A DNA stretch of 51,375 nt from Chloroflexota bacterium (GTDB lineage: Bacteria > Chloroflexota > Anaerolineae > UBA4142 > SHND01), in contig JAKOPZ010000051.1 in the NCBI GenBank assembly GCA_029778615.1, positions 1 to 51,375 of the forward strand. Reading direction: 5' to 3'. The notes under the pieces were generated by a model. It saw only the letters and a list, made by a program, of their open reading frames with translations. It had not been told where the DNA came from and made no database searches. Both the position numbers and the translations under genes were made by a program. This document shows, piece by piece, positions 207 to 14,091 of this stretch (its first letter is position 1; every line of letters begins with the position of its first letter).

Positions 207-767
207 TTATTGACTCGGCTGCGGCACACTGCGCTGTAATTGAATCGCGCTGGCGGCAGGATTCGCGCCCGTGTCTTTGCTAAAAACGGTCACGCGGTCG
301 CCCACCTGCAAATCCGAAAGGGTGCCGCGGTCCGTTTTGGAAATGACCGTCGCGTCATTCACTTGGACGCTCACCACGCTGTCGGGAGTGCTGATTTCGA
401 CCGTGTTGCCATTAACGGATTTGATTTGTCCGCGCGCGACACAGTTGCCCAATTCGGCGAATCCGCCAAACTGTCCGCCTTGACGCCGATTTTGTCCGTT
501 CCCTTGCGCGTTGGTTTGCCCATTCGCTTGGTTGCCACCTTGCGCGCCGCCCTGTGGAAATTGAAATACTTGCCCGCCAAAACCACACGGATTATTTGCC
601 GCGCCTTGCGCGTTGCCTTGCTGCGCTTGAATCGCGCGTTGACGCGCAAAATCGGAAACGGTGTTTTGCGCTTGTGCTTGCGCGTAGGTCATGCCGCCAA
701 AAAATCCGCCCGCGCCGGCAAGACCTGCTATGACAATTGCGCCGATAACGATGTATGCGATTTTCAT
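207..767 (-). CDS. Anchored DUF5666-like protein
   Basis: 186-residue protein. A hydrophobic segment right after MKIAYIV serves as signal peptide or membrane anchor. It is followed by a Gln/Asn/Gly-rich low-complexity region (roughly residues 45-105). The C-terminal ~75 residues form a small beta-rich domain with the pattern ARGQIKSVNGNTVEIS and LSDLQVGDRVTVF, as in DUF5666 (OB-like) domains. The ATG at 767 is chosen because GGAG lies just upstream; the longer reading to 845 adds residues with no support. It is the last gene of the minus-strand efflux operon and probably acts outside the membrane. Its exact role is unknown. Confidence 0.75.
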   Translation of the reverse strand: MKIAYIVIGAIVIAGLAGAGGFFGGMTYAQAQAQNTVSDFARQRAIQAQQGNAQGAANNPCGFGGQVFQFPQGGAQGGNQANGQTNAQGNGQNRRQGGQFGGFAELGNCVARGQIKSVNGNTVEISTPDSVVSVQVNDATVISKTDRGTLSDLQVGDRVTVFSKDTGANPAASAIQLQRSVPQPSQ

Positions 768-810
768 TGATACTCCGTCCAGTGCCATTGTGCAATCAAG
801 CCAACGTACG

Positions 811-869
811 ATAGTCAAGAACCGTTTGACTATCGCACTAATCAACTATTGCACTATCGCACTATCTTG
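811..869. repeat. Short stutter repeat with a hairpin upstream of the DUF5666 gene
   Basis: The spacer holds three imperfect copies of ACTATCGCACTA-type sequence and a dyad, ATAGTCAA (811-818) with TTGACTAT (826-833). It lies between the small membrane protein gene and the DUF5666 gene of one operon. It may be a processing hairpin or simple repeat drift. Confidence 0.45.
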
Positions 870-1054: not shown

Positions 1055-2287
1055 TTATTCGTAGCGCAGCGCTTCAATCGGACGCAGCGCGCTCGCGCGC
1101 AGTGCGGGATACGTTCCAAAAAACAGTCCGATGAGCACCGAAAACACAACGCCAATCAAAATCGCGCCCGTATCCACTACCGGTTTAATCTGCGTATTGC
1201 CGAGCGAGACATTTCCCATTAACGACGCAATGCTCCAGCCGAGCGCGACTCCAATCAACCCGCCAAACACACTCAACACGGTCGCTTCGGTCAAAAATTG
1301 CAGCAGGATGTCACTCCGTTTCGCGCCGACGGCTTTGCGAATCCCGATTTCGCGCGTGCGCTCGGTAACGCTCACGAGCATAATATTCATAATCCCGATA
1401 CCACCGACAATGAGCGAAATCGCGGCAATGCCGCCAAGAAAAATCGTCAATGTATCCGTCACCGACGTTGCCGCGCTCAAAATATCGGCTTGACTTGTCA
1501 CGGTAAAATCATCTTCGACGACGCGATGTCGTTCGCGCAAAATGTCACCAATTTGCTGCGTGACCGAATCGCTGTATTGCGTGTCTTGGAGTTTGATGTT
1601 GATGACGTCAATATTGTTGCCGCCGCGAAACCGTCCGCCGCGCCCCAAGCGCGTTTGTGCGGTCGTCAAGGGCACAAAAATTTGCGTGTCCTGACTCAAA
1701 AATCCGGTGCCGCCTTTCGGCTCCATCACACACGCAACGCGAAACGGCACGTTGTTAATACGAACAGTTTGCCCTATCGGGTCTTGTTCGGGAAACAGCT
1801 CGTCGGCGACGCCGCTGCCCAAGCACGTGACAAGCGAGCGTCCCGAAACATTTGCGGCGGAAATGAATTCGCCTGACGCGGGCGCCGCCGTGCTCGCGTC
1901 AAGATATTCCGGCGTGACCCCGAGCACGCGCGCATTCATATTGTTGCCCTGATAAACGATTTGTCCGAACGAATCTACTTCCGGCGCGATTGCCACAATC
2001 CCTTCGATGTTTTTCAACGCGTCGCTGTCTTCAAGCGTTAACGTCCCCGCGCTCCCTTCTTGGCCGCGCACGCCCCCTTGCTGCGACGCGCCGGGACGCA
2101 CAAACAACAAATTCGTGCCAATGCTTTGAATTTGATTCGAAATCGCTTGCGACGCGCCGCGCCCGATACTCATTAACGCAATGACCGCCGCAACGCCAAT
2201 GATGACGCCGAGCATGGTCAGTCCGGCGCGCAATTTATTTGCCATCAATGAGCTCAGCGCGATGCGAACGGACTCGAAAAGTTTCAT
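1055..2287 (-). CDS. MacB-type ABC transporter permease
   Basis: 410 residues with the MacB/FtsX layout: one N-terminal transmembrane helix (residues ~15-40, ending in MSIGRGASQ), a large extracytoplasmic MacB-PCD domain (about 45-270), then three C-terminal helices in an FtsX domain. TREIGIRKAVGAKRSDIL is the typical FtsX coupling segment, and the protein ends PIEALRYE as this family does. Its ATG overlaps the ATPase stop codon by one base (TAATG). It should pair with the ATPase and the HlyD-like adaptor to form a tripartite-like export or mechanotransmission complex. Substrate unknown: peptides, lipids, antibiotics and siderophores are all possible. Confidence 0.92.
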   Translation of the reverse strand: MKLFESVRIALSSLMANKLRAGLTMLGVIIGVAAVIALMSIGRGASQAISNQIQSIGTNLLFVRPGASQQGGVRGQEGSAGTLTLEDSDALKNIEGIVAIAPEVDSFGQIVYQGNNMNARVLGVTPEYLDASTAAPASGEFISAANVSGRSLVTCLGSGVADELFPEQDPIGQTVRINNVPFRVACVMEPKGGTGFLSQDTQIFVPLTTAQTRLGRGGRFRGGNNIDVINIKLQDTQYSDSVTQQIGDILRERHRVVEDDFTVTSQADILSAATSVTDTLTIFLGGIAAISLIVGGIGIMNIMLVSVTERTREIGIRKAVGAKRSDILLQFLTEATVLSVFGGLIGVALGWSIASLMGNVSLGNTQIKPVVDTGAILIGVVFSVLIGLFFGTYPALRASALRPIEALRYE

Positions 2288-2949
2288 TACACAATCATCC
2301 CATCTTTGACGTGAATGGTGCGCTGTGCCAACGCGGCAACATCCGGGTCATGTGTAACCAACACAATCGTCATGCCTCGTTCGCCATTGAGCCGTTTGAA
2401 AATGTTCATGATTTCTTCGCCCGAAGTCGAATCGAGATTGCCCGTCGGTTCGTCGGCAAGAATAATCGCGGGTTCGTTCACCAAAGCGCGCGCAATTGCC
2501 ACCCGCTGCTGCTGCCCGCCCGATAATTCGTTCGGGCGATGCTGTGTGCGGTCGCCGAGTCCCACTTGCGCCAATGCATCGAGCGCGCGTTGGCGGCGGT
2601 CCGGTTTGCCCGCATACACCATGGGCAATTCCACCTGGTCGAGCGCGGTGGTGCGCGGGAGCAAATTGAAACTCTGAAAGACGAATCCAATTTTTTGATT
2701 GCGAATGGTGGCGAGTTGGTCGTCGTTCATTTTGCTCACGTCCACGTCATCCAGTTTGTACGTGCCCGCGCTCGCCTGGTCGAGACAGCCGATAATGTTC
2801 ATCAGCGTTGATTTTCCCGAACCCGACGGACCAACAATCGCGACCATCTCGCCGCGTGCGATTTCGAGCGAGACGCCGCGCAGCGCGCGCACTTGGGTTT
2901 CGCCCATCTGATATGTTTTGGTGACGTTCTCGATTTGAATGACTGGCAT
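2287..2949 (-). CDS. MacB/LolD-family ABC transporter ATPase
   Basis: 220 residues, standard for a LolD/MacB ATPase. Walker A is GPSGSGKS (residues 40-47), the signature is LSGGQQQR, and Walker B is [12 protein letters not shown], with the TGNLD tail typical of this class; the switch histidine is in VLVTHD. It powers the adjacent FtsX-type permease. The ATG at 2949 lies 10 bases after the adaptor gene stop, and the stop codon overlaps the permease start, showing tight operon structure. Confidence 0.95.
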
Positions 2950-2959
2950 GGGTCTTTAT

Positions 2960-4603
2960 TTAGCGGACGATGAAACCGCCGCCTCCGCCAATGAATCCAC
3001 CGCCTTGCGTGCGGTTATTCGTGGTCGTCGTATTCAGGACGACAGTGTCTCCTTCTTGCAGCTGCACGGTCTGTCCGTCCGTCGTCGTCGCGCCTAAAAT
3101 TTCTGTGACCGTATCGTTTTGCAGACCCGTTTGAACCACCACCGGAATCTCGCGTCCCTCAAACAAAATCGTCATCACGCGCCGATTGCCTTGCGTACGA
3201 ATTGCGCGATTTGGCGCGAGCAGTGCATCGTTCACTTGCGCGGTGATAATGCTCGCCTGCGCCGTCATGCCCGGCAAAATCGCCGGGTCCGGATTGGTCA
3301 ATGCAACCGTCACGTTGTAATTGACAACTCCTTGCGAGCTCGTCCCGAGCGGCGATACGGCGACAACTTGACCGGGAAAAGTACGTCCCGTCAACGCATC
3401 AAATGTCAATTCAACTTTTTGATTGGGCTTGACTTCGGACACATCTATTTCGGAAAGAGATACGAGGATTTCCAATTCGTTTGTGTTGACCAGCGTCAGC
3501 GCGGTTGTGCCGGACGAGGCAGTTTGTCCGACAAACGTGCTCACGCTTGCGACCGTGCCGTCAAACGGCGCAATGATTTTTGCATCGTCCAACGCGCGCG
3601 TAGCTTGGTCGAGCGCGTTCTGCGCGGTATCCACGGCGGCTTGCGCGTCCAGCAACTGAATCTCCGTCGCACCGGTTTGCAGGTCTTGGAGATTTTGTTT
3701 TGCTTGCAAGAGACTTTGATTCGCCGATTCCACGGCGGCTTGCGCGGACGCCAGTGCATCCGCCGTCGGTCCCGCTGTCAAATCGTCCAACGTCTTTTTC
3801 GCGTTCGCCAACGATGCTTGCGCGGACATGAGGGCGCTGTCGTTCATTTCCGTTTGCGAGAGGTTGTAATTTGCCAACGCCGATTCGTAATCAATCGTCG
3901 CGCTTTGCAGGGTCTGCGCGGCGCCCGAATTGGGAGCGTTGTCTTGCCAGGCAATCGCGTTGTACGCCGCTTGTGCCGACTCTAACGCAATGCGCGCTTT
4001 TTCCAGCGACGCGCGCTGGACGGTAATTTGGTCGCTCGTCATTTTGGATTTCGCGAGCGCCGTTTCGTACGCCGCTTGCGCGGCGGCATAGGACGAACGC
4101 GCGGCTTGCAATTCCGTCGCGGCGGGCGGCGCTTTTAACGCGTCGAGTTTCGCCACTGCCGAATCGTACGAAGATTGCGCGCCTTTTACCTGCGACTGCG
4201 CGACCGCGATTTCTTCTGCTGTGGGCGGCGCTTTTAAATCATCCAGTTTTGCCTGCGCGCTTTTCAAATTGGTTTGCGCGCTGGCGAGCGCTTGGTTCAG
4301 TTGCGTCGCATCGGCTTCCGCGAGCACGTCACCTTTTTTCACCGCGTCGCCAACCTTGACATTCACTTTTGTCACCGGCACACCGCTCACGCCAAAACTC
4401 AAATTCGATTGCTGCGGCGCGGTAATGTTGCCTGCGCCGCTGACCGAAGCGGACAGGGCGCCGCGCGAGAGCGTTCCGGTCTGACGCGTTGCCGCTGCGT
4501 TGGTGCGCTGCGCGTTCGACTGCTGCCAAAAATAAAACGCGCCCGCGCCGATAACGAGGACGAGGACCAAGACAATGACCAGTACAAGATTTCGCCGCGA
4601 CAT
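2960..4603 (-). CDS. HlyD/MacA-type efflux adaptor
   Basis: 547 residues. An N-terminal signal anchor (LVLVIVLVLVLVIGAGAFYF) is followed by a half-lipoyl motif (VNVKVGDAVKKGDVLAEAD, around 80-100). Next comes a very long Ala/Gln/Leu-rich coiled coil (about 105-345) with repeated SAQA.L..L heptads, then the second lipoyl half (IIAPFDGTVASVS) and beta-barrel domains. The C-terminus is Gly-rich (GGGFIGGGGG). The coiled coil is much longer than in MacA; in a monoderm-like envelope it would reach across the wall rather than to a TolC. First gene of the operon, behind the Pho-box-like repeats at 4681-4699. Confidence 0.9.
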   Translation of the reverse strand: MSRRNLVLVIVLVLVLVIGAGAFYFWQQSNAQRTNAAATRQTGTLSRGALSASVSGAGNITAPQQSNLSFGVSGVPVTKVNVKVGDAVKKGDVLAEADATQLNQALASAQTNLKSAQAKLDDLKAPPTAEEIAVAQSQVKGAQSSYDSAVAKLDALKAPPAATELQAARSSYAAAQAAYETALAKSKMTSDQITVQRASLEKARIALESAQAAYNAIAWQDNAPNSGAAQTLQSATIDYESALANYNLSQTEMNDSALMSAQASLANAKKTLDDLTAGPTADALASAQAAVESANQSLLQAKQNLQDLQTGATEIQLLDAQAAVDTAQNALDQATRALDDAKIIAPFDGTVASVSTFVGQTASSGTTALTLVNTNELEILVSLSEIDVSEVKPNQKVELTFDALTGRTFPGQVVAVSPLGTSSQGVVNYNVTVALTNPDPAILPGMTAQASIITAQVNDALLAPNRAIRTQGNRRVMTILFEGREIPVVVQTGLQNDTVTEILGATTTDGQTVQLQEGDTVVLNTTTTNNRTQGGGFIGGGGGFIVR

Positions 4604-4666: not shown

Positions 4667-4699
4667 ATTCTAGACAATAATTGTTTAGAAGTTGTTTAG
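4667..4699 (-). promoter_or_regulatory. Efflux operon promoter with 11-bp direct repeats
   Basis: Read on the minus strand, CTAAACAACTTCTAAACA places two CTAAACA 7-mers four bases apart (11-bp period) at 4699-4682. Nine bases later follows a -10-like TAGAAT (4672-4667), about 64 bases before the adaptor start. The 7+4+7 layout in place of a -35 box is the architecture of PhoB/PhoP-type (OmpR family) activator sites. The same layout occurs at 7424-7456. Confidence 0.6.
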
Positions 4700-4822
4700 G
4701 ACACATTAGAGTTGAATGAATGCAAGATGCAGCGCGGGATTCACGCCGCCGCGAACGTGTGTAATTTGCCAATAAACTCATACGCGCCAAAATAGAAACT
4801 ACTTGCGTGAACGGAGAATTAT

Positions 4823-6196
4823 TTGAGCGAATCAATTTCATCACAAACCGAGTGGGACAAATTACGCGTTGAACCGGCGGCGATTCCGCGTCTTGCGCGC
4901 GCGGACATGGCAATTTCGATTGTGCTTGGCTTGCTCGCGCTTGCGCTTGCCGCGGCGTGGACACAAACTGTCCCGGCATCCTGGAACGATATTTCGCGTG
5001 TGGCAGCCATGCAAGCGCGCGTTGAACAGGGAACGTGGGCGCTCAACAATTCGCCGTGGCTGGACTTGACCGAAGACAAAGTGCTGCTCGGCGAAAATTA
5101 TTTTTCCGGCAAGATGCCCTTGCTCTCTGCCATCGGCGCGGTGGAATACGCAGTGCTGCATAATGTCGCGGGCTTGGCGCTCGCGCCCGATTGCGCGCAG
5201 ACCGCGAACGGCTGTGCGTACTATTGGCTTACGCTGACATTGGTGGGAATTCCCTTTGCGCTGATGGTGGGCGTAATGTACGCGTGGGCGCGCGGCTTGA
5301 ATTTTTCAATCGGCGTCGCGTTGTTGGGGACGCTTGCGCTCGGTTTGGGGACCGAAGTGTTTCCCTACGCGCTGACGCTCAATCATCATGTTCCTGCCGC
5401 CGTGAGTTTGTTTGTCGGACTCTATGCGCTTGTACAGCTCGCGCCGCGTCAGCCGCGCTGGCTGCTCGTCACGGGTTTCGCTGCCACGTTCGCGCCACTG
5501 TGCGACCCGCTCGCGGGGTTGTTCGCCGTTGGATTGTTTGTGCTCGCGGTTGTGCGTTATCGCGCGCAGGCGTTGTATTTTGTCGTCGGCGCGCTGCCGC
5601 CGCTGCTCGCGACGGCGTGGCTCGATTTACAAATCACGGGCACCGTCATTCCCCCGTACATGACGTTGAGTGGTTATGCGTACAAAGAAGCAGGCGACCA
5701 GCGCGGGCTCGCGGGTGCGGGCACGCCGGACGATTTGCCGCAGTACGCGTTCAAAATGTTTTTGGGCGCGCAAGGACTGTTTGCGTACAATCCGATTCTC
5801 TTGTTTGCGCTGCTGGGTGTCGGTATAGTCGCGTTTCATCGGCAGGCGCGTTTGAATTTGGAAGCGTTGGTCGTCGGACTCGCCGCGCTCGGCGTCGGTT
5901 TGTATCTCGCGTTTCGCACCGGCAATCTTGGCGGCAACGCGTATGGTGAACGCTATCTCATCAGCGTTGTGCCAATCGTCATGGCATTTTTGTTTTTCGC
6001 GCCGCCCTTGTTCAAGACACGCGGACGCGCGGTGTGGGCAATTTTGTTCGCGGTGTTTCTAGGTTTGTCCGTCTATTCGTCATTTCAAGGCGCGGCGAAT
6101 CCGTGGGAATACGCACAGCCGCCATTTCATCTCACGCGCAATGCCGAAACGGGCGCGCTCGGCGCCCGTTGGAATGTGCGCTTGCCATTCCGCTAA
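4823..6196 (+). CDS. Multi-pass membrane protein, GT-C glycosyltransferase-like
   Basis: 457 residues with about ten to twelve predicted transmembrane helices. TTG at 4823 is taken as start because GGAG lies 6 bases upstream. The first loop after helix 1 (about residues 50-95) contains WNDISR and DKVLLGENYFSGKMPLLS, recalling the acidic/Arg and K-P-P-L loop of ArnT/PMT-like GT-C enzymes, where the substrate-binding acidic residue sits. No family assignment is certain; it could be a polyprenyl-phosphate-dependent sugar transferase. Its end overlaps the convergent ferric-reductase gene by four bases. Confidence 0.7.
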   Translation: MSESISSQTEWDKLRVEPAAIPRLARADMAISIVLGLLALALAAAWTQTVPASWNDISRVAAMQARVEQGTWALNNSPWLDLTEDKVLLGENYFSGKMPLLSAIGAVEYAVLHNVAGLALAPDCAQTANGCAYYWLTLTLVGIPFALMVGVMYAWARGLNFSIGVALLGTLALGLGTEVFPYALTLNHHVPAAVSLFVGLYALVQLAPRQPRWLLVTGFAATFAPLCDPLAGLFAVGLFVLAVVRYRAQALYFVVGALPPLLATAWLDLQITGTVIPPYMTLSGYAYKEAGDQRGLAGAGTPDDLPQYAFKMFLGAQGLFAYNPILLFALLGVGIVAFHRQARLNLEALVVGLAALGVGLYLAFRTGNLGGNAYGERYLISVVPIVMAFLFFAPPLFKTRGRAVWAILFAVFLGLSVYSSFQGAANPWEYAQPPFHLTRNAETGALGARWNVRLPFR

Positions 6197-6810
6197 CTTT
6201 TCGTACGCGTCAATCCAGTTGGCGCGGGAACGGCAGTTTGTTTGTGCGTGAGCTGCCAAATCCAATACGCGGTCAGTACGACAACGACGAGCGCAGTCTC
6301 CAAGTACATCAACTGCGTTGCCGCCAAAGTCGAATCGGTGCCGGAAAAGATGCCGTGCAGAGTTGCGCCAATGTACGAGGCGAAACTGGCATAGTGCAAA
6401 ACGCGAAATGTTTTGAACCCGATGCGTTGGCGCAAGTAAAATGTGATGGTGACCAACGCCGCGAGGTCGAACGCAATAATTCCGAACGCCGTCCACACGG
6501 TTCGATATTCCGAAGTGAACGGGACAAAAAGTTGAAGGATAGAAAATGGTAAATAGCGGTCAAACATCAAGACAACCATATGAATTGCCGTGAACGCGAG
6601 CGCGAGCAAGGATAGAAATTCGTGCGCGTCAAAGGTAAACAAGCGTGGCAGAATCGAATCGAACGGCTTTGCCGCGACCGCAAGTCCCCAGACGGTGGAC
6701 AACCACAACAGCAAATATGCCATGATGCCTGCCGAACGCGTAATAAACCAAAACACATGCGCGCTGTCGAGTGAGAACGCGCTGCTCAACCATTGAAAAA
6801 TTTCATTCAT
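6193..6810 (-). CDS. Ferric-reductase-like transmembrane haem protein
   Basis: 205 residues, about six helices. Two histidine pairs fit the bis-haem pattern of the ferric reductase/NOX membrane domain: HEFLSLLALAFTAIH (13 residues between the histidines) and HYASFASYIGATLH (12 between). No FAD or NAD domain is fused, so electrons must come from a separate partner, as in MsrQ-type proteins. Last gene of a three-gene minus operon with two small exported proteins, transcribed away from the two-component system. Function inferred: transmembrane electron transfer. Confidence 0.85.
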   Translation of the reverse strand: MNEIFQWLSSAFSLDSAHVFWFITRSAGIMAYLLLWLSTVWGLAVAAKPFDSILPRLFTFDAHEFLSLLALAFTAIHMVVLMFDRYLPFSILQLFVPFTSEYRTVWTAFGIIAFDLAALVTITFYLRQRIGFKTFRVLHYASFASYIGATLHGIFSGTDSTLAATQLMYLETALVVVVLTAYWIWQLTHKQTAVPAPTGLTRTKS

Positions 6811-6840
6811 CTTGCCGCTCCTTGATTTTTCTCTGAAAAT

Positions 6841-7155
6841 TTATGAACCGCCCGTTCGCAAACGCGTTTGCGTGCGCGCACTAGAATTGGTTTGGGTTTG
6901 AGTGGTCGTCGTTTGGATTGGAATGACGGGTACGCTTGCGGGCACACCCACCGCTTGATTGACCAAAGAATCGTCCGTGAGAATTGCATCGGCTCCCGTC
7001 GCCTCCTTTGTTGTTTCCAAAATCACCGTCGGCGCGCTGTTTCCTGCCAAACTATTGTTCGCGTTGCCCAGGGCAATCCAGCCGCCCAAGAATCCAATCA
7101 CACTGCCCGCAGCAATCATGACGCGGAGCGCATTGTTGTTAGATTTTTTGTTCAT
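6841..7155 (-). CDS. Small exported protein with Thr/Gln-rich tail
   Basis: 104 residues. ATG at 7155 is preceded by AGGAGA at good spacing; the longer frame to 7431 would run through the upstream small gene. After NNNALRVMIAAGSVIGFLGGWIALG (membrane anchor) comes a small extracytoplasmic region and a low-complexity end (TTTTQTQTNSSARTQTR). No enzyme motif is seen. The layout, with a haem membrane protein downstream, suggests an electron-transfer or surface accessory, but this is unproven. Confidence 0.7.
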   Translation of the reverse strand: MNKKSNNNALRVMIAAGSVIGFLGGWIALGNANNSLAGNSAPTVILETTKEATGADAILTDDSLVNQAVGVPASVPVIPIQTTTTQTQTNSSARTQTRLRTGGS

Positions 7156-7157
7156 GG

Positions 7158-7313
7158 TTACTTGGTCTCCTGAACGAGATTCATGGTGAGCGCATTCGTA
7201 TTGGCTGCCGTGCTGTTGACAGCCCGCGCGTTCAGCCCGATGCCGAACATGGTGGCGACGAGAAGCAACGCAATGATGCTCGCGGCGAGAAAAGAATTGA
7301 TTTGCTTTTGCAT
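7158..7313 (-). CDS. 51-residue single-helix membrane peptide
   Basis: Frame from ATG 7313 to TAA 7160-7158, encoding MQKQINSFLAASIIALLLVA and ending NLVQETK. One strong hydrophobic helix covers residues 8-28. AGGAGT sits about ten bases upstream of the ATG, and the gene ends two bases before the next ATG, so it is likely translated and coupled. The hydrophobic helix followed by a polar, Asn/Thr-rich tail resembles the next gene's product, so the two may be related partners. Confidence 0.65.
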   Translation of the reverse strand: MQKQINSFLAASIIALLLVATMFGIGLNARAVNSTAANTNALTMNLVQETK

Positions 7314-7423
7314 GGTCAAGACACTCCTGAATTATTTGACGCAAGCGTGCCGTCATTGCGCCATACTTTAATCCGTCCAAGTTCAAATGTTGTATAGACG
7401 GCGTGCAAGTTTGCGCAAAAACT

Positions 7424-7482
7424 CTTAACACCTTCTAAACATTTTCTTGCTAAGATTCACGAATGGACGACATGGTGTCGTC
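7424..7482 (+). promoter_or_regulatory. Response regulator promoter: direct repeats, extended -10, dyad
   Basis: CTTAACA (7424-7430) and CTAAACA (7435-7441) form an 11-bp-period direct repeat. Nine bases later comes TAAGAT (7451-7456), preceded by TGC (extended -10). A perfect dyad, GACGACA-TGG-TGTCGTC (7466-7482), follows close to the expected start point. The repeats match those upstream of the efflux operon in sequence and spacing, so autoregulation by the encoded OmpR-type regulator is likely. Confidence 0.6.
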
Positions 7483-7499
7483 GTTGATGACCAAGCTAT

Positions 7500-8186
7500 A
7501 TGGCGCAGACCATTCTCGTTGTGGACGATAAAGCCAACGTCCGCACAATGCTCAAAGATTATCTGGGCGAACAGGGCTATCGCGTGCTGACCGCCGAAAA
7601 TGGGCAGGATGCGTTGTATGTCGCGCGGTATGATAATCCGGACCTCGTGCTGCTGGACGTGATGATGCCGCGCATGGACGGCTTTGCATTTCTCCCCGCG
7701 TTTCGTCGCGAATCGCAAGCGCCGGTCATTTTGCTGACGGCGAAATTGGAAGAGCAGGACAAAGTCATCGGTCTCGAACTGGGCGCGGACGATTACGTCA
7801 CCAAACCGTTCGGGATGCGCGAACTGCTCGCGCGCGTGCGCGCCCAGCTTCGGCGCGCGGGGCAACCGCCCGTTACCAGTCCAACTCTCCGTGTGGGCGA
7901 TTTGCTTTTGGACAAGGATAAACGCGAAGTGCACGTGGGCACGCGTGCAGTCAATCTCACGCCTACCGAATTTGATTTGCTCGCGCGTTTGATGCAAGCG
8001 CCGGGGCGCGTTTTTACGCGCGCGGAATTGTTGGACGGACTGGGCGCGGCGGCGATGGTCGAGCGCACGGTGGACGTACACGTGCGGAATCTGCGCGCCA
8101 AGATTGAAACGGACCCCGCGAACCCGCGTTACATTGAAACGGTTTTTAGTGTGGGGTATCGTCTTCAAGACCAAGCCGATGATTAG
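7500..8186 (+). CDS. OmpR/PhoB-family response regulator
   Basis: 228 residues. Receiver domain 1-120 with acidic pair D9/D10, phosphoacceptor D53 (LVLLDVMMPRMDG), LLTAK and TKPF switch residues. A C-terminal winged helix (about 130-225) contains LTPTEFDLLARLM and DVHVRNLRAKIE, typical of OmpR/PhoB DNA-binding domains. The start at 7500 has a weak ribosome site. Its last eight bases overlap the histidine kinase gene. Expected targets are its own promoter and the minus-strand efflux operon, which share Pho-box-like repeats. Confidence 0.95.
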   Translation: MAQTILVVDDKANVRTMLKDYLGEQGYRVLTAENGQDALYVARYDNPDLVLLDVMMPRMDGFAFLPAFRRESQAPVILLTAKLEEQDKVIGLELGADDYVTKPFGMRELLARVRAQLRRAGQPPVTSPTLRVGDLLLDKDKREVHVGTRAVNLTPTEFDLLARLMQAPGRVFTRAELLDGLGAAAMVERTVDVHVRNLRAKIETDPANPRYIETVFSVGYRLQDQADD

Positions 8187-9549
8187 ATTCCCCGGTTCGC
8201 TGCGTTTCAAATTGATTGCCGGATTCCTTGGGGTGAGTCTCGGCTCGATTGCGCTTGTCGCCATTCTCAGTTGGGTCGCGGCGACGAGTGAATTTACGCG
8301 CTTTGTGGGACAACAGGCGCAAGACGACTTTGTTGTTTTCGTTTCCAACTATTACGCGACGAACGCGTCCCTCAACGGCGTGGACAAAGCCATTCGCGTA
8401 CGCGTCGAAGTGCCTTTCAACGCGACCACCGACCTGCCCGAGCAGGTACGCTTCTTTCCCTTTGGCTTGGCAACACCCGACGGCGTTGTCGTGAATCCGA
8501 GCGAAGGATATCGTCTCGGCGAACGCGTGCCCGATGAACTCATCGCGACCGGCACCAAGATTTTCCGCGATGGCAAGGTGATTGCCGTCGTCTTGCCGCG
8601 TCCCGCGCCATTCCCGCGCAACCGCGCCCAAGAGCAATTTGTCCAACGCACGTTAAACACCTTTTTAGTTTCCGCCGGCGGCGCGGCAATCGTGGCAATT
8701 ATTTTGGGCGTGGCACTGGCGCGCACCATTACGCGTCCTGTACAAGAATTGACGAACGCGGCGCAACGCATGGCAAAAGGGGAATTGGGACATACCGTGC
8801 GTGTGGAATCGCGGGATGAAGTGGGCGACCTCGCGAACGCATTCAATCAAATGAGTTCGGACTTGAAGCGTTCGGACCAGGTGCGGCGGCAAATGACCGC
8901 CGACATTGCGCACGAATTACGCAATCCGCTCACCGTCATCGGCGGCTATTTGGATGCAATGCGTGTGGGCGATTTACAGCCGACGCCGCAGCGGCTCGAC
9001 GCGGTGTACGACGAGATTCAACATCTCGAACATATCGTCGAAGATTTGCGAACACTTTCGCTCGCCGACGCGGGCGCGCTCGTTTTGAATTGCCAAGAAG
9101 TTTCGCTGCGCGAAATCTTGCAGCGCGTCGCGAACCGTTTTGCGCCGCAAGCGGCGCAGAAAAAAATCGCGCTCCAAGTCAGTGCCGATTCCGCAATGCC
9201 GCTACTTCAATTGGACGAAGCGCGGATGACCCAAGTTTTGGATAATTTGGTAAGCAACGCGCTGCAGCACACTCACGCGGGCGGGCGCATTACGCTCGCG
9301 GCAGAACAAAATGAAGACAACATTTTCTTGCGTGTAAGCGATACGGGTAAAGGAATCAGCCCCGAAGATTTGCCGCACGTGTTTGAACGCTTTTATCGCG
9401 GCGACCGCGCGCGTCCGGCAGAAGAAGGTTCATCGGGATTGGGGCTTGCGATTGCGAAAGCGTTGGTGGAAGCACACGGAGGGAAAATTTCCGTCGCGAG
9501 CGTTTTGGGGCAAGGCACGACCTTTATGATTGAACTGCCTATCTTGTAG
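8179..9549 (+). CDS. Sensor histidine kinase
   Basis: 456 residues from the ATG at 8179, which overlaps the regulator stop codon. Two transmembrane helices (about 14-36 and 160-182) bracket an extracytoplasmic sensor domain of about 120 residues. HAMP follows (about 183-235), then HisKA with H245 in DIAHELRNPLTV. The HATPase domain has the N box (DNLVSNALQHT), the G1 box (DTGKGI) and GLGLAIAKALVEAHGG. All catalytic boxes are intact, unlike the second kinase in this window. Cognate partner of the regulator just upstream. Confidence 0.95.
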   Translation: MIRFPGSLRFKLIAGFLGVSLGSIALVAILSWVAATSEFTRFVGQQAQDDFVVFVSNYYATNASLNGVDKAIRVRVEVPFNATTDLPEQVRFFPFGLATPDGVVVNPSEGYRLGERVPDELIATGTKIFRDGKVIAVVLPRPAPFPRNRAQEQFVQRTLNTFLVSAGGAAIVAIILGVALARTITRPVQELTNAAQRMAKGELGHTVRVESRDEVGDLANAFNQMSSDLKRSDQVRRQMTADIAHELRNPLTVIGGYLDAMRVGDLQPTPQRLDAVYDEIQHLEHIVEDLRTLSLADAGALVLNCQEVSLREILQRVANRFAPQAAQKKIALQVSADSAMPLLQLDEARMTQVLDNLVSNALQHTHAGGRITLAAEQNEDNIFLRVSDTGKGISPEDLPHVFERFYRGDRARPAEEGSSGLGLAIAKALVEAHGGKISVASVLGQGTTFMIELPIL

Positions 9550-9551
9550 CA

Positions 9552-9736
9552 ACTAGTACTACTTTGTCACTTGACAGTCGGGCGATTCAAATCGCGGCAA
9601 CCCAGAGCGAAATCGGCCTCCGCCGATTGAGCTTTTGCATAATTTTGAGCCGTTTCAAGTCTGCGTAGGCAGACTTGGCTATGCGTTGCTGCGATTTCCA
9701 ATCGCCCAAGAGTCAATCTGACAAAGTAGTACTAGT
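9552..9736. mobile_element. 185-bp MITE-like element with ~50-bp terminal inverted repeats
   Basis: Starts three bases after the kinase stop codon. The ends ACTAGTACTACTTTGTCA (9552-9569) and its reverse complement (9719-9736) continue inward as imperfect arms of about 50 bases each. The middle holds two further dyads: AATCGG..CCGATT (9611-9628) and AGTCTGC..GCAGACT (9658-9675). No coding sequence is seen. A non-autonomous insertion element is the best reading; as RNA it would form a very strong hairpin and could stop kinase transcription. Confidence 0.65.
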
Positions 9737-9750
9737 GACGATGAAAAAAA

Positions 9751-9780
9751 AAGAGAGCGAACGCGCGGCGTCGCTCTCTT
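9751..9780. terminator. Bidirectional rho-independent terminator
   Basis: Ten-base stem AAGAGAGCGA / TCGCTCTCTT (9751-9760, 9771-9780) with an A-run on its left and a T-run on its right. It therefore terminates the glycogen operon on the minus strand (eight U after the hairpin) and can also stop plus-strand transcripts. Confidence 0.85.
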
Positions 9781-9791
9781 TTATATTCTAC

Positions 9792-13904: not shown

Positions 13905-14091
13905 GGAACGCTGCGGCGAGCGTTCCCTACCGCGTGCGTGAATGTATGGAACGAACGCCGTTTCGTTCCCTGTGTACGGAAAACGGAACGCTGCGGCGAG
14001 CGTTCCCTACCGCGCGTGTGAACGTAGGGAACGAACGCCGTTTCATTCCCTGTGTACGGAAAATGGAACTGCGGCGAGCGTTCCCTACCGC
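13905..14091. repeat. 80-bp tandem repeat of palindromes (2.3 copies)
   Basis: Copies start at 13905, 13985 and 14065 (exactly 80 bases apart). Each holds two dyads: GGAACGCT-GCGGCG-AGCGTTCC and GGAACGAA-CGCCG-TTTCGTTCC, the second with small changes. The third copy is partial and runs into the lipoprotein gene, whose stop codon (14087-14085) lies inside it. The array sits between that gene and the glycogen synthase start. Confidence 0.85.

Follow-up and report, generated by a model that had tools for sequence, protein, structure and literature searches.

Two direct-repeat boxes of one design stand before two operons in a 51,375-nucleotide contig of a Chloroflexota bacterium (JAKOPZ010000051.1; "the window" below means this whole stretch of DNA). 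One operon encodes a MacA-MacB-type export pump and the other an OmpR/PhoB-type response regulator (RR) with its sensor histidine kinase. We propose, with high confidence, that the boxes are tandem sites of the RR encoded at 7500-8186, and that the phosphorylated RR would act as a class II activator of its own operon and of the pump, in a regulon that would reach beyond these two. The features concerned are the following, with the score of the weaker third box taken from a position weight matrix (PWM) and ABC denoting ATP-binding cassette.

4682..4699, minus strand: pump-side box CTAAACA-ACTT-CTAAACA (sequence; kept at the same gene in four congeners)
4700..4710, minus strand: weaker third upstream unit, TCTAATG with its 4-nt spacer (TGTC), 11 bp in register (sequence, congener alignment)
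4667..4672, minus strand: -10 hexamer TAGAAT, following the pump-side box after 9 nt (sequence)
7424..7441, plus strand: regulator-side box CTTAACA-CCTT-CTAAACA (sequence, congener alignment)
7451..7456, plus strand: -10 hexamer TAAGAT, following the regulator-side box after 9 nt (sequence)
7380..7397, minus strand: weaker third box CTATACA-ACAT-TTGAACT, then 9 nt and a -10-like TAAAGT at 7370-7365 (PWM score 18.2)
2960..4603, minus strand: MacA-like periplasmic adaptor (HlyD/RND_mfp; PF13437/PF16576), first gene of the pump operon (profile matches)
2287..2949, minus strand: ABC ATPase of the MacB/LolD type (PF00005) (profile matches)
1055..2287, minus strand: MacB-type permease, MacB_PCD and FtsX (PF12704, PF02687) (profile matches)
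207..845, minus strand: DUF5666-like secreted protein, whose gene is conserved and closes the pump cluster (profile matches; 47-57% in four congeners)
7500..8186, plus strand: OmpR/PhoB-type RR (profile matches; class-wide orthologues)
8179..9549, plus strand: sensor histidine kinase with HAMP, HisKA and HATPase_c domains, overlapping the RR stop (profile matches)

The pump-side box, read 4699-4682, is followed by 9 nt (ATTATTGTC) and then by TAGAAT (4672-4667), while the regulator-side box, 7424-7441, is followed by 9 nt (TTTTCTTGC) and then by TAAGAT (7451-7456); the two boxes lie 2.74 kb apart. A preliminary description of this DNA had pointed out both boxes, their period of 11 and the nine bases to the -10, all of which are present letter for letter. 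The four-base spacers that it called equal are so in length (4 nt) but not in sequence (ACTT and CCTT), and it passed over the third pump-side unit and the weaker leftward box at 7397-7380. A consensus scan found no TTGACA-type -35 at the pump or the regulator promoter. A 22-codon reading frame (7463-7531) opens where transcription is expected to begin and runs across the RR start codon; it may be a chance frame or a leaderless leader peptide.

Scanning of the complete assembly that contains the window (6,007,141 bases, 372 contigs) for CTWAACA-N4-CTWAACA returned exactly two exact matches, which are the two window boxes. There were no sites with one mismatch and 22 with two, and scaling from the latter gives an expectation of about 0.03 exact sites for the genome. 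The random genome-wide occurrence that the preliminary description had named as evidence against itself is thus not seen. With a PWM built on the sites of the genus, the pump-side box scores 30.7 and the regulator-side box 26.9, and no score of 19 or more arose in 12 Mb of random sequence matching the dinucleotide make-up of the window. Because the boxes are unique in the genome and their scores are unmatched in random sequence, their likeness is not attributable to chance.

The arrangement is conserved in the genus. Among five congeners compared, the RR is present in four, with orthologues 78-83% identical, and absent in the fifth (G002), in which two strict scans gave no box match. In all four RR-bearing congeners the directly divergent neighbour of the RR is the MacA-like gene (61-75% identical), trailed by the ATPase, permease and DUF5666 genes, and each shared RR/MacA-like intergenic region holds two outward-facing boxes. 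Counting two genes in each of five genomes (the four RR-bearing congeners and that of the window), the distance from the box to a T-A-N-N-N-T hexamer is exactly 9 nt in 10 of 10 promoters, and each genome has TAGAAT or TACAAT as its pump-side -10 at this distance. Column identity on the pump side is 0.94 for unit 1, 1.00 for the spacer, 0.83 for unit 2 and 0.90 for the -10, against 0.37 and 0.28 for the flanks; on the regulator side the values are 0.86, 0.82, 0.74 and 0.73, against 0.28 and 0.22. The 9-nt gap is poorly conserved in sequence (0.34 on the pump side, 0.49 on the regulator side). The third pump-side unit, lying 11 bp further upstream, shows partial conservation (0.66 against 0.37 for the flank) and reads CYTAATC, CTTAAAC or CTTTATC in relatives.

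Since the congeners keep both promoters in one shared intergenic region, the window is the derived case, and the ancestral layout was a divergent RR/pump pair sharing a single two-box region. About 2.5 kb of other genes now separate the RR and pump halves, each of which has retained its box. The weaker leftward box, 26 bp from the RR box, faces the small-protein/ferric-reductase-like operon of the inserted DNA, into which it would now read.

We then consider the class, in a sample of 396 genomes where the RR was called present at E <= 1e-76, which placed it above the cut-off in 142. Upstream regions of 400 nt from 86 RR genes outside the genus, in other genera and families, were compared at a threshold of 10/12 for spacers of 2-6 nt and gaps of 6-12 nt. 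The combination of spacer 4 and gap 9 gave 11 matches, every other combination gave 0-2 and shuffles averaged 0.1; upstream of 12 paralogous RR genes of the genus there was none at the same threshold. The strict pattern CTNAACA-N4-CTNAACA-N9-TANNNT occurs at 44 sites in 38 of the 396 genomes, against one site for the reversed control, and the positions that the pattern leaves free converge on a spacer of ACTT, a second unit of CTGAACA and a -10 of TATACT. Strict sites are found in 30 of 142 genomes with the RR versus 8 of 254 without it (Fisher p = 1.4e-8). For 16 of the 44, the RR follows on the same strand at no more than 3.5 kb, the site standing either immediately before the RR or at the head of its presumed operon. 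Links to the pump recur as well. G208, which belongs to another family, likewise has the RR gene and a MacB-type ATPase gene in divergent orientation; the former carries a strict box, and a weaker box (CTAAACA-CTTT-CTTTGCA-9-TAGCCT) faces the latter. In G097 and G034 a strict box immediately precedes a MacB-type ABC gene.

The regulator belongs to a family in which such an operator is at home. Its Response_reg (PF00072, 106.5 bits) and Trans_reg_C (PF00486, 82.5 bits) domains both score above cut-off, in agreement with the earlier assignment of an OmpR/PhoB-type regulator behind one of the boxes, and the direct-repeat operator of 11-bp period expected of this family is what is found, with spacer 4 uniquely enriched. 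None of the named members examined fits: the RR scores 216.4 against a cut-off of 296.2 for PhoB (TIGR02154) and 162.3 against an equivalog cut-off of 340 for AdeR, and it misses the curated cut-offs for MtrA and BaeR. In the recognition-helix region, box-bearing orthologues mostly read ERT[VIM]DVH[VI]RNLR and box-less paralogues DAHIKNLR or DSHIKNLR; the corresponding region of PhoB, DVHIR, is similar to the former. In the RRs of the genus, the loop before the recognition helix (GAAAM-VERTVD) lacks two residues relative to the remaining orthologues of the class and the paralogues compared. In the OmpR/PhoB family this loop contacts the polymerase machinery (PMC3960148).

From these observations we infer the following course of events. 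The partner kinase would phosphorylate the RR, two molecules of which would bind head-to-tail on the 11-bp repeats, possibly joined by a third on the pump side. With its site 9 nt ahead of the -10, the bound RR would cover the position where a -35 is lacking and recruit RNA polymerase (class II activation). Expression of the RR/kinase operon would rise in a positive feedback, together with that of the MacA-MacB-type export operon and its DUF5666 protein, and the inducing signal would probably be stress on the envelope or a toxic compound that the pump expels. Activation is suggested because of the box geometry together with the absence of a listed -35. The preliminary description had likewise proposed that the two-component system activates itself and the MacAB-like pump; congener layout, conservation and class-wide co-occurrence support this proposal, although the regulon seems to be wider and to include further envelope genes.

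Other explanations were weighed against this one. That two AT-rich promoter regions merely look alike is suggested by the low-complexity letters of the 18-mer and by the window itself, which contains three sites at up to two mismatches where 0.36 are expected; genome-wide uniqueness, the PWM comparison with random sequence, conservation in the congeners and the class count of 44 against 1 rule it out for practical purposes. Another member of the OmpR/PhoB family in this genome, such as a true PhoB, might instead own the boxes and control both operons, with the local two-component system merely a target. The genome encodes several more OmpR-type RRs, the layout is the same as that of the PHO box, and a similar box precedes a PHO4 phosphate transporter in one class genome (L286). 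We nevertheless regard this as improbable: the strict box is missing from G002, which has no RR, and tracks the RR across the class; it stands upstream of this RR's gene or operon in many genera and not of the 12 paralogous RR genes; and the strict sites of the genome itself mark the pump, the RR and envelope genes, with no pst or pho genes among them. Since the RR also falls short of the PhoB cut-off (216 against 296), the local RR is the most economical binder.

The RR might also bind the boxes but repress. The box spans about -39 to -22, so that the repeats overlap the -35 region and occlusion of polymerase is conceivable. With no -35 consensus listed at either promoter, however, an activator would be needed; the distance to the -10 stays at 9 nt in all ten promoters of the genus and across the class, an invariance that typically accompanies a fixed phase relative to polymerase; and the box position agrees with PHO-box activation (PMC4415409). 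We therefore consider repression unlikely.

Some results weigh against activation by this RR as the explanation of the boxes. Of the 86 RR orthologues outside the genus, at 55-65% identity, 75 lack a clear box in the 400 nt upstream at the 10/12 threshold; some carry one farther upstream at the operon head, and in others it may have been lost by divergence. A strict box without an RR above cut-off is seen in eight genomes, and some class sites are due to chance or to a different regulator, the PHO4 site in L286 being an example. In view of the box-less distant orthologues and these eight genomes, related regulators may account for part of the signal seen in the class. The choice of activation over repression draws on geometry and the absent -35.

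Tandem binding by the local RR with activation thus remains the preferred explanation, in which the RR very probably activates its own operon, the pump and a number of cell-surface genes, the targets beyond the RR and the pump being predictions from sequence. Three further targets are predicted in the same genome, and two candidate sites there are described here. A box of three units on C172 (9331-9288, minus strand), 9 nt from TAGGAT, precedes a lipoprotein of the intradiol dioxygenase family (PF00775; L126:6873-7721, minus strand). No orthologues of it were found in the congeners, but a strict box also precedes a 59% identical dioxygenase-family protein in a genome of another family (L303), which independently supports this target. 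The second, on C253 (1910-1878, minus strand; L168:1172-1910, minus strand; box score 28.0), lies between a paralogous MacB operon, just after its permease gene, and a secreted 171-aa protein without a Pfam family. Elsewhere in the class, sites precede genes for DUF5666 (L288), DUF2680-like (L296, L301, L309, L310, L314), Lcl_C (L289, and L165/L166, where the gene heads the regulator operon), VTC (L315) and YHYH (L304) proteins, and sites also precede Cthe_2159 genes (L308, L312, with a weaker box in G004, L170). As a side observation, the locus in L286 (102-1501, minus strand) has a triple CTTAACA-type repeat, 9 nt from TACAGT, before the gene of the PHO4 phosphate transporter, which diverges from that of another RR with 37% identity; the repeat could be a true phosphate-type box recognised by that or some other regulator than the one studied here.

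Because most of the target products look exported or membrane-bound, an envelope regulon would be the natural reading of the set. We lean towards a class-wide envelope-stress regulon in the Anaerolineae and relatives (Chloroflexota), with the single architecture of the strict pattern, that would join MacB-type exporters with the secreted families DUF5666, DUF2680, Lcl_C, Cthe_2159, VTC and YHYH and the intradiol-dioxygenase-like lipoprotein. It would give these poorly characterised families their first common physiological context. Such a regulon is apparently undescribed so far: among the papers listed in the literature searches, none covered a two-component system/MacB regulon of Anaerolineae, and none named a Chloroflexi RR motif or DUF5666. 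In this way a two-site observation in one metagenomic contig becomes an operator code that can be tested across a large class of mostly uncultured bacteria, and a probable common regulator is assigned to an export pump together with several secreted families that lack a known function. The locus also indicates that a divergent pump/regulator pair can split with both promoters retaining the operator.

By analogy, the system is expected to work as an autoregulated class II activator of the OmpR/PhoB type, as do AdeRS/adeABC or HssRS/hrtAB, although by sequence it is neither of these, nor PhoB. The repeat of HssRS/hrtAB differs in sequence from the box described here. In Acinetobacter baumannii, the OmpR-family regulator AdeR binds an intercistronic direct repeat and drives the AdeABC pump (PMC5947904). 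The four congeners share with it a two-component system divergent from its pump across a common regulatory region, while in the window the pair is about 2.5 kb apart; AdeABC, however, is a tripartite RND pump and not a MacB/FtsX-type ABC pump, and its repeat is described as 10 bp (PMC5947904), against a period of 11 bp here. In Bacilli, HssRS (and also HitRS) is an OmpR-family two-component system that drives the heme-export transporter hrtAB through a promoter direct repeat (PMC3968170), a mode of control predicted here too, although hrtAB lacks a MacA-like adaptor. The PHO box consists of two 7-nt units 4 nt apart, with an 11-nt period, bound head-to-tail by an OmpR/PhoB-family activator (PMC4415409). 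The 18-nt 7-4-7 layout is the same here, so that the name "Pho-box-like" used in the preliminary description holds for layout, but neither the unit (CTNAACA, and CTGTCAT in the E. coli-type PHO box) nor the curated PhoB score agrees. Unlike those of a PhoB regulon, the strict sites of this genome lie at the pump, the RR, the dioxygenase and the secreted protein rather than at phosphate uptake genes, and the sole site before PHO4 (L286) is in another genome, without this RR above cut-off. With a MacA-like adaptor, a MacB-like ATPase and a MacB_PCD/FtsX permease, the pump resembles MacAB and falls within the MacB-type ABC superfamily, but its ATPase and permease are encoded by separate genes, whereas MacB fuses the two. 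It is not a MacB equivalog (scores of 286 and 251 against a cut-off of 966).

The remaining genes of the locus lie between the pump and the RR.

4823..6196, plus strand: membrane protein, possible glycosyltransferase (weak LA_3751 match below cut-off)
6193..7313, minus strand: inserted operon of two small exported-looking proteins and a ferric-reductase-like membrane protein (sequence, profile search)
7313-7158, minus strand: first small exported-looking protein of the inserted operon
7155-6841, minus strand: second small exported-looking protein of the inserted operon
6810-6193, minus strand: ferric-reductase-like membrane protein of the inserted operon

The membrane-protein gene is part of the DNA missing between RR and pump in the congeners. 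The ferric-reductase-like gene recurs in the genus, beside a homologue of the small protein in L175 and L179 and adjoining other OmpR-type two-component systems in L176, L177, L178 and L180. No box was found at these paralogues elsewhere in the genus, and the leftward box at 7397-7380 is for this reason put forward as a possible site. The DUF5666-like gene at 207..845 is given as the longest open reading frame, with a TTG start, and its true start is probably further in; the kinase start (ATG 8179) was inferred from sequence. Directly behind the kinase gene, at 9552-9736, lies an element of about 185 bp resembling a miniature inverted-repeat transposable element. Its 18-bp terminal inverted repeats (ACTAGTACTACTTTGTCA) match perfectly, it has no second copy within the window, and it is followed by a terminator-like hairpin at 9743-9788. 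Further along, at 13905-14091, 80-bp tandem direct repeats (93%) are accompanied by a third partial copy and contain internal inverted repeats.

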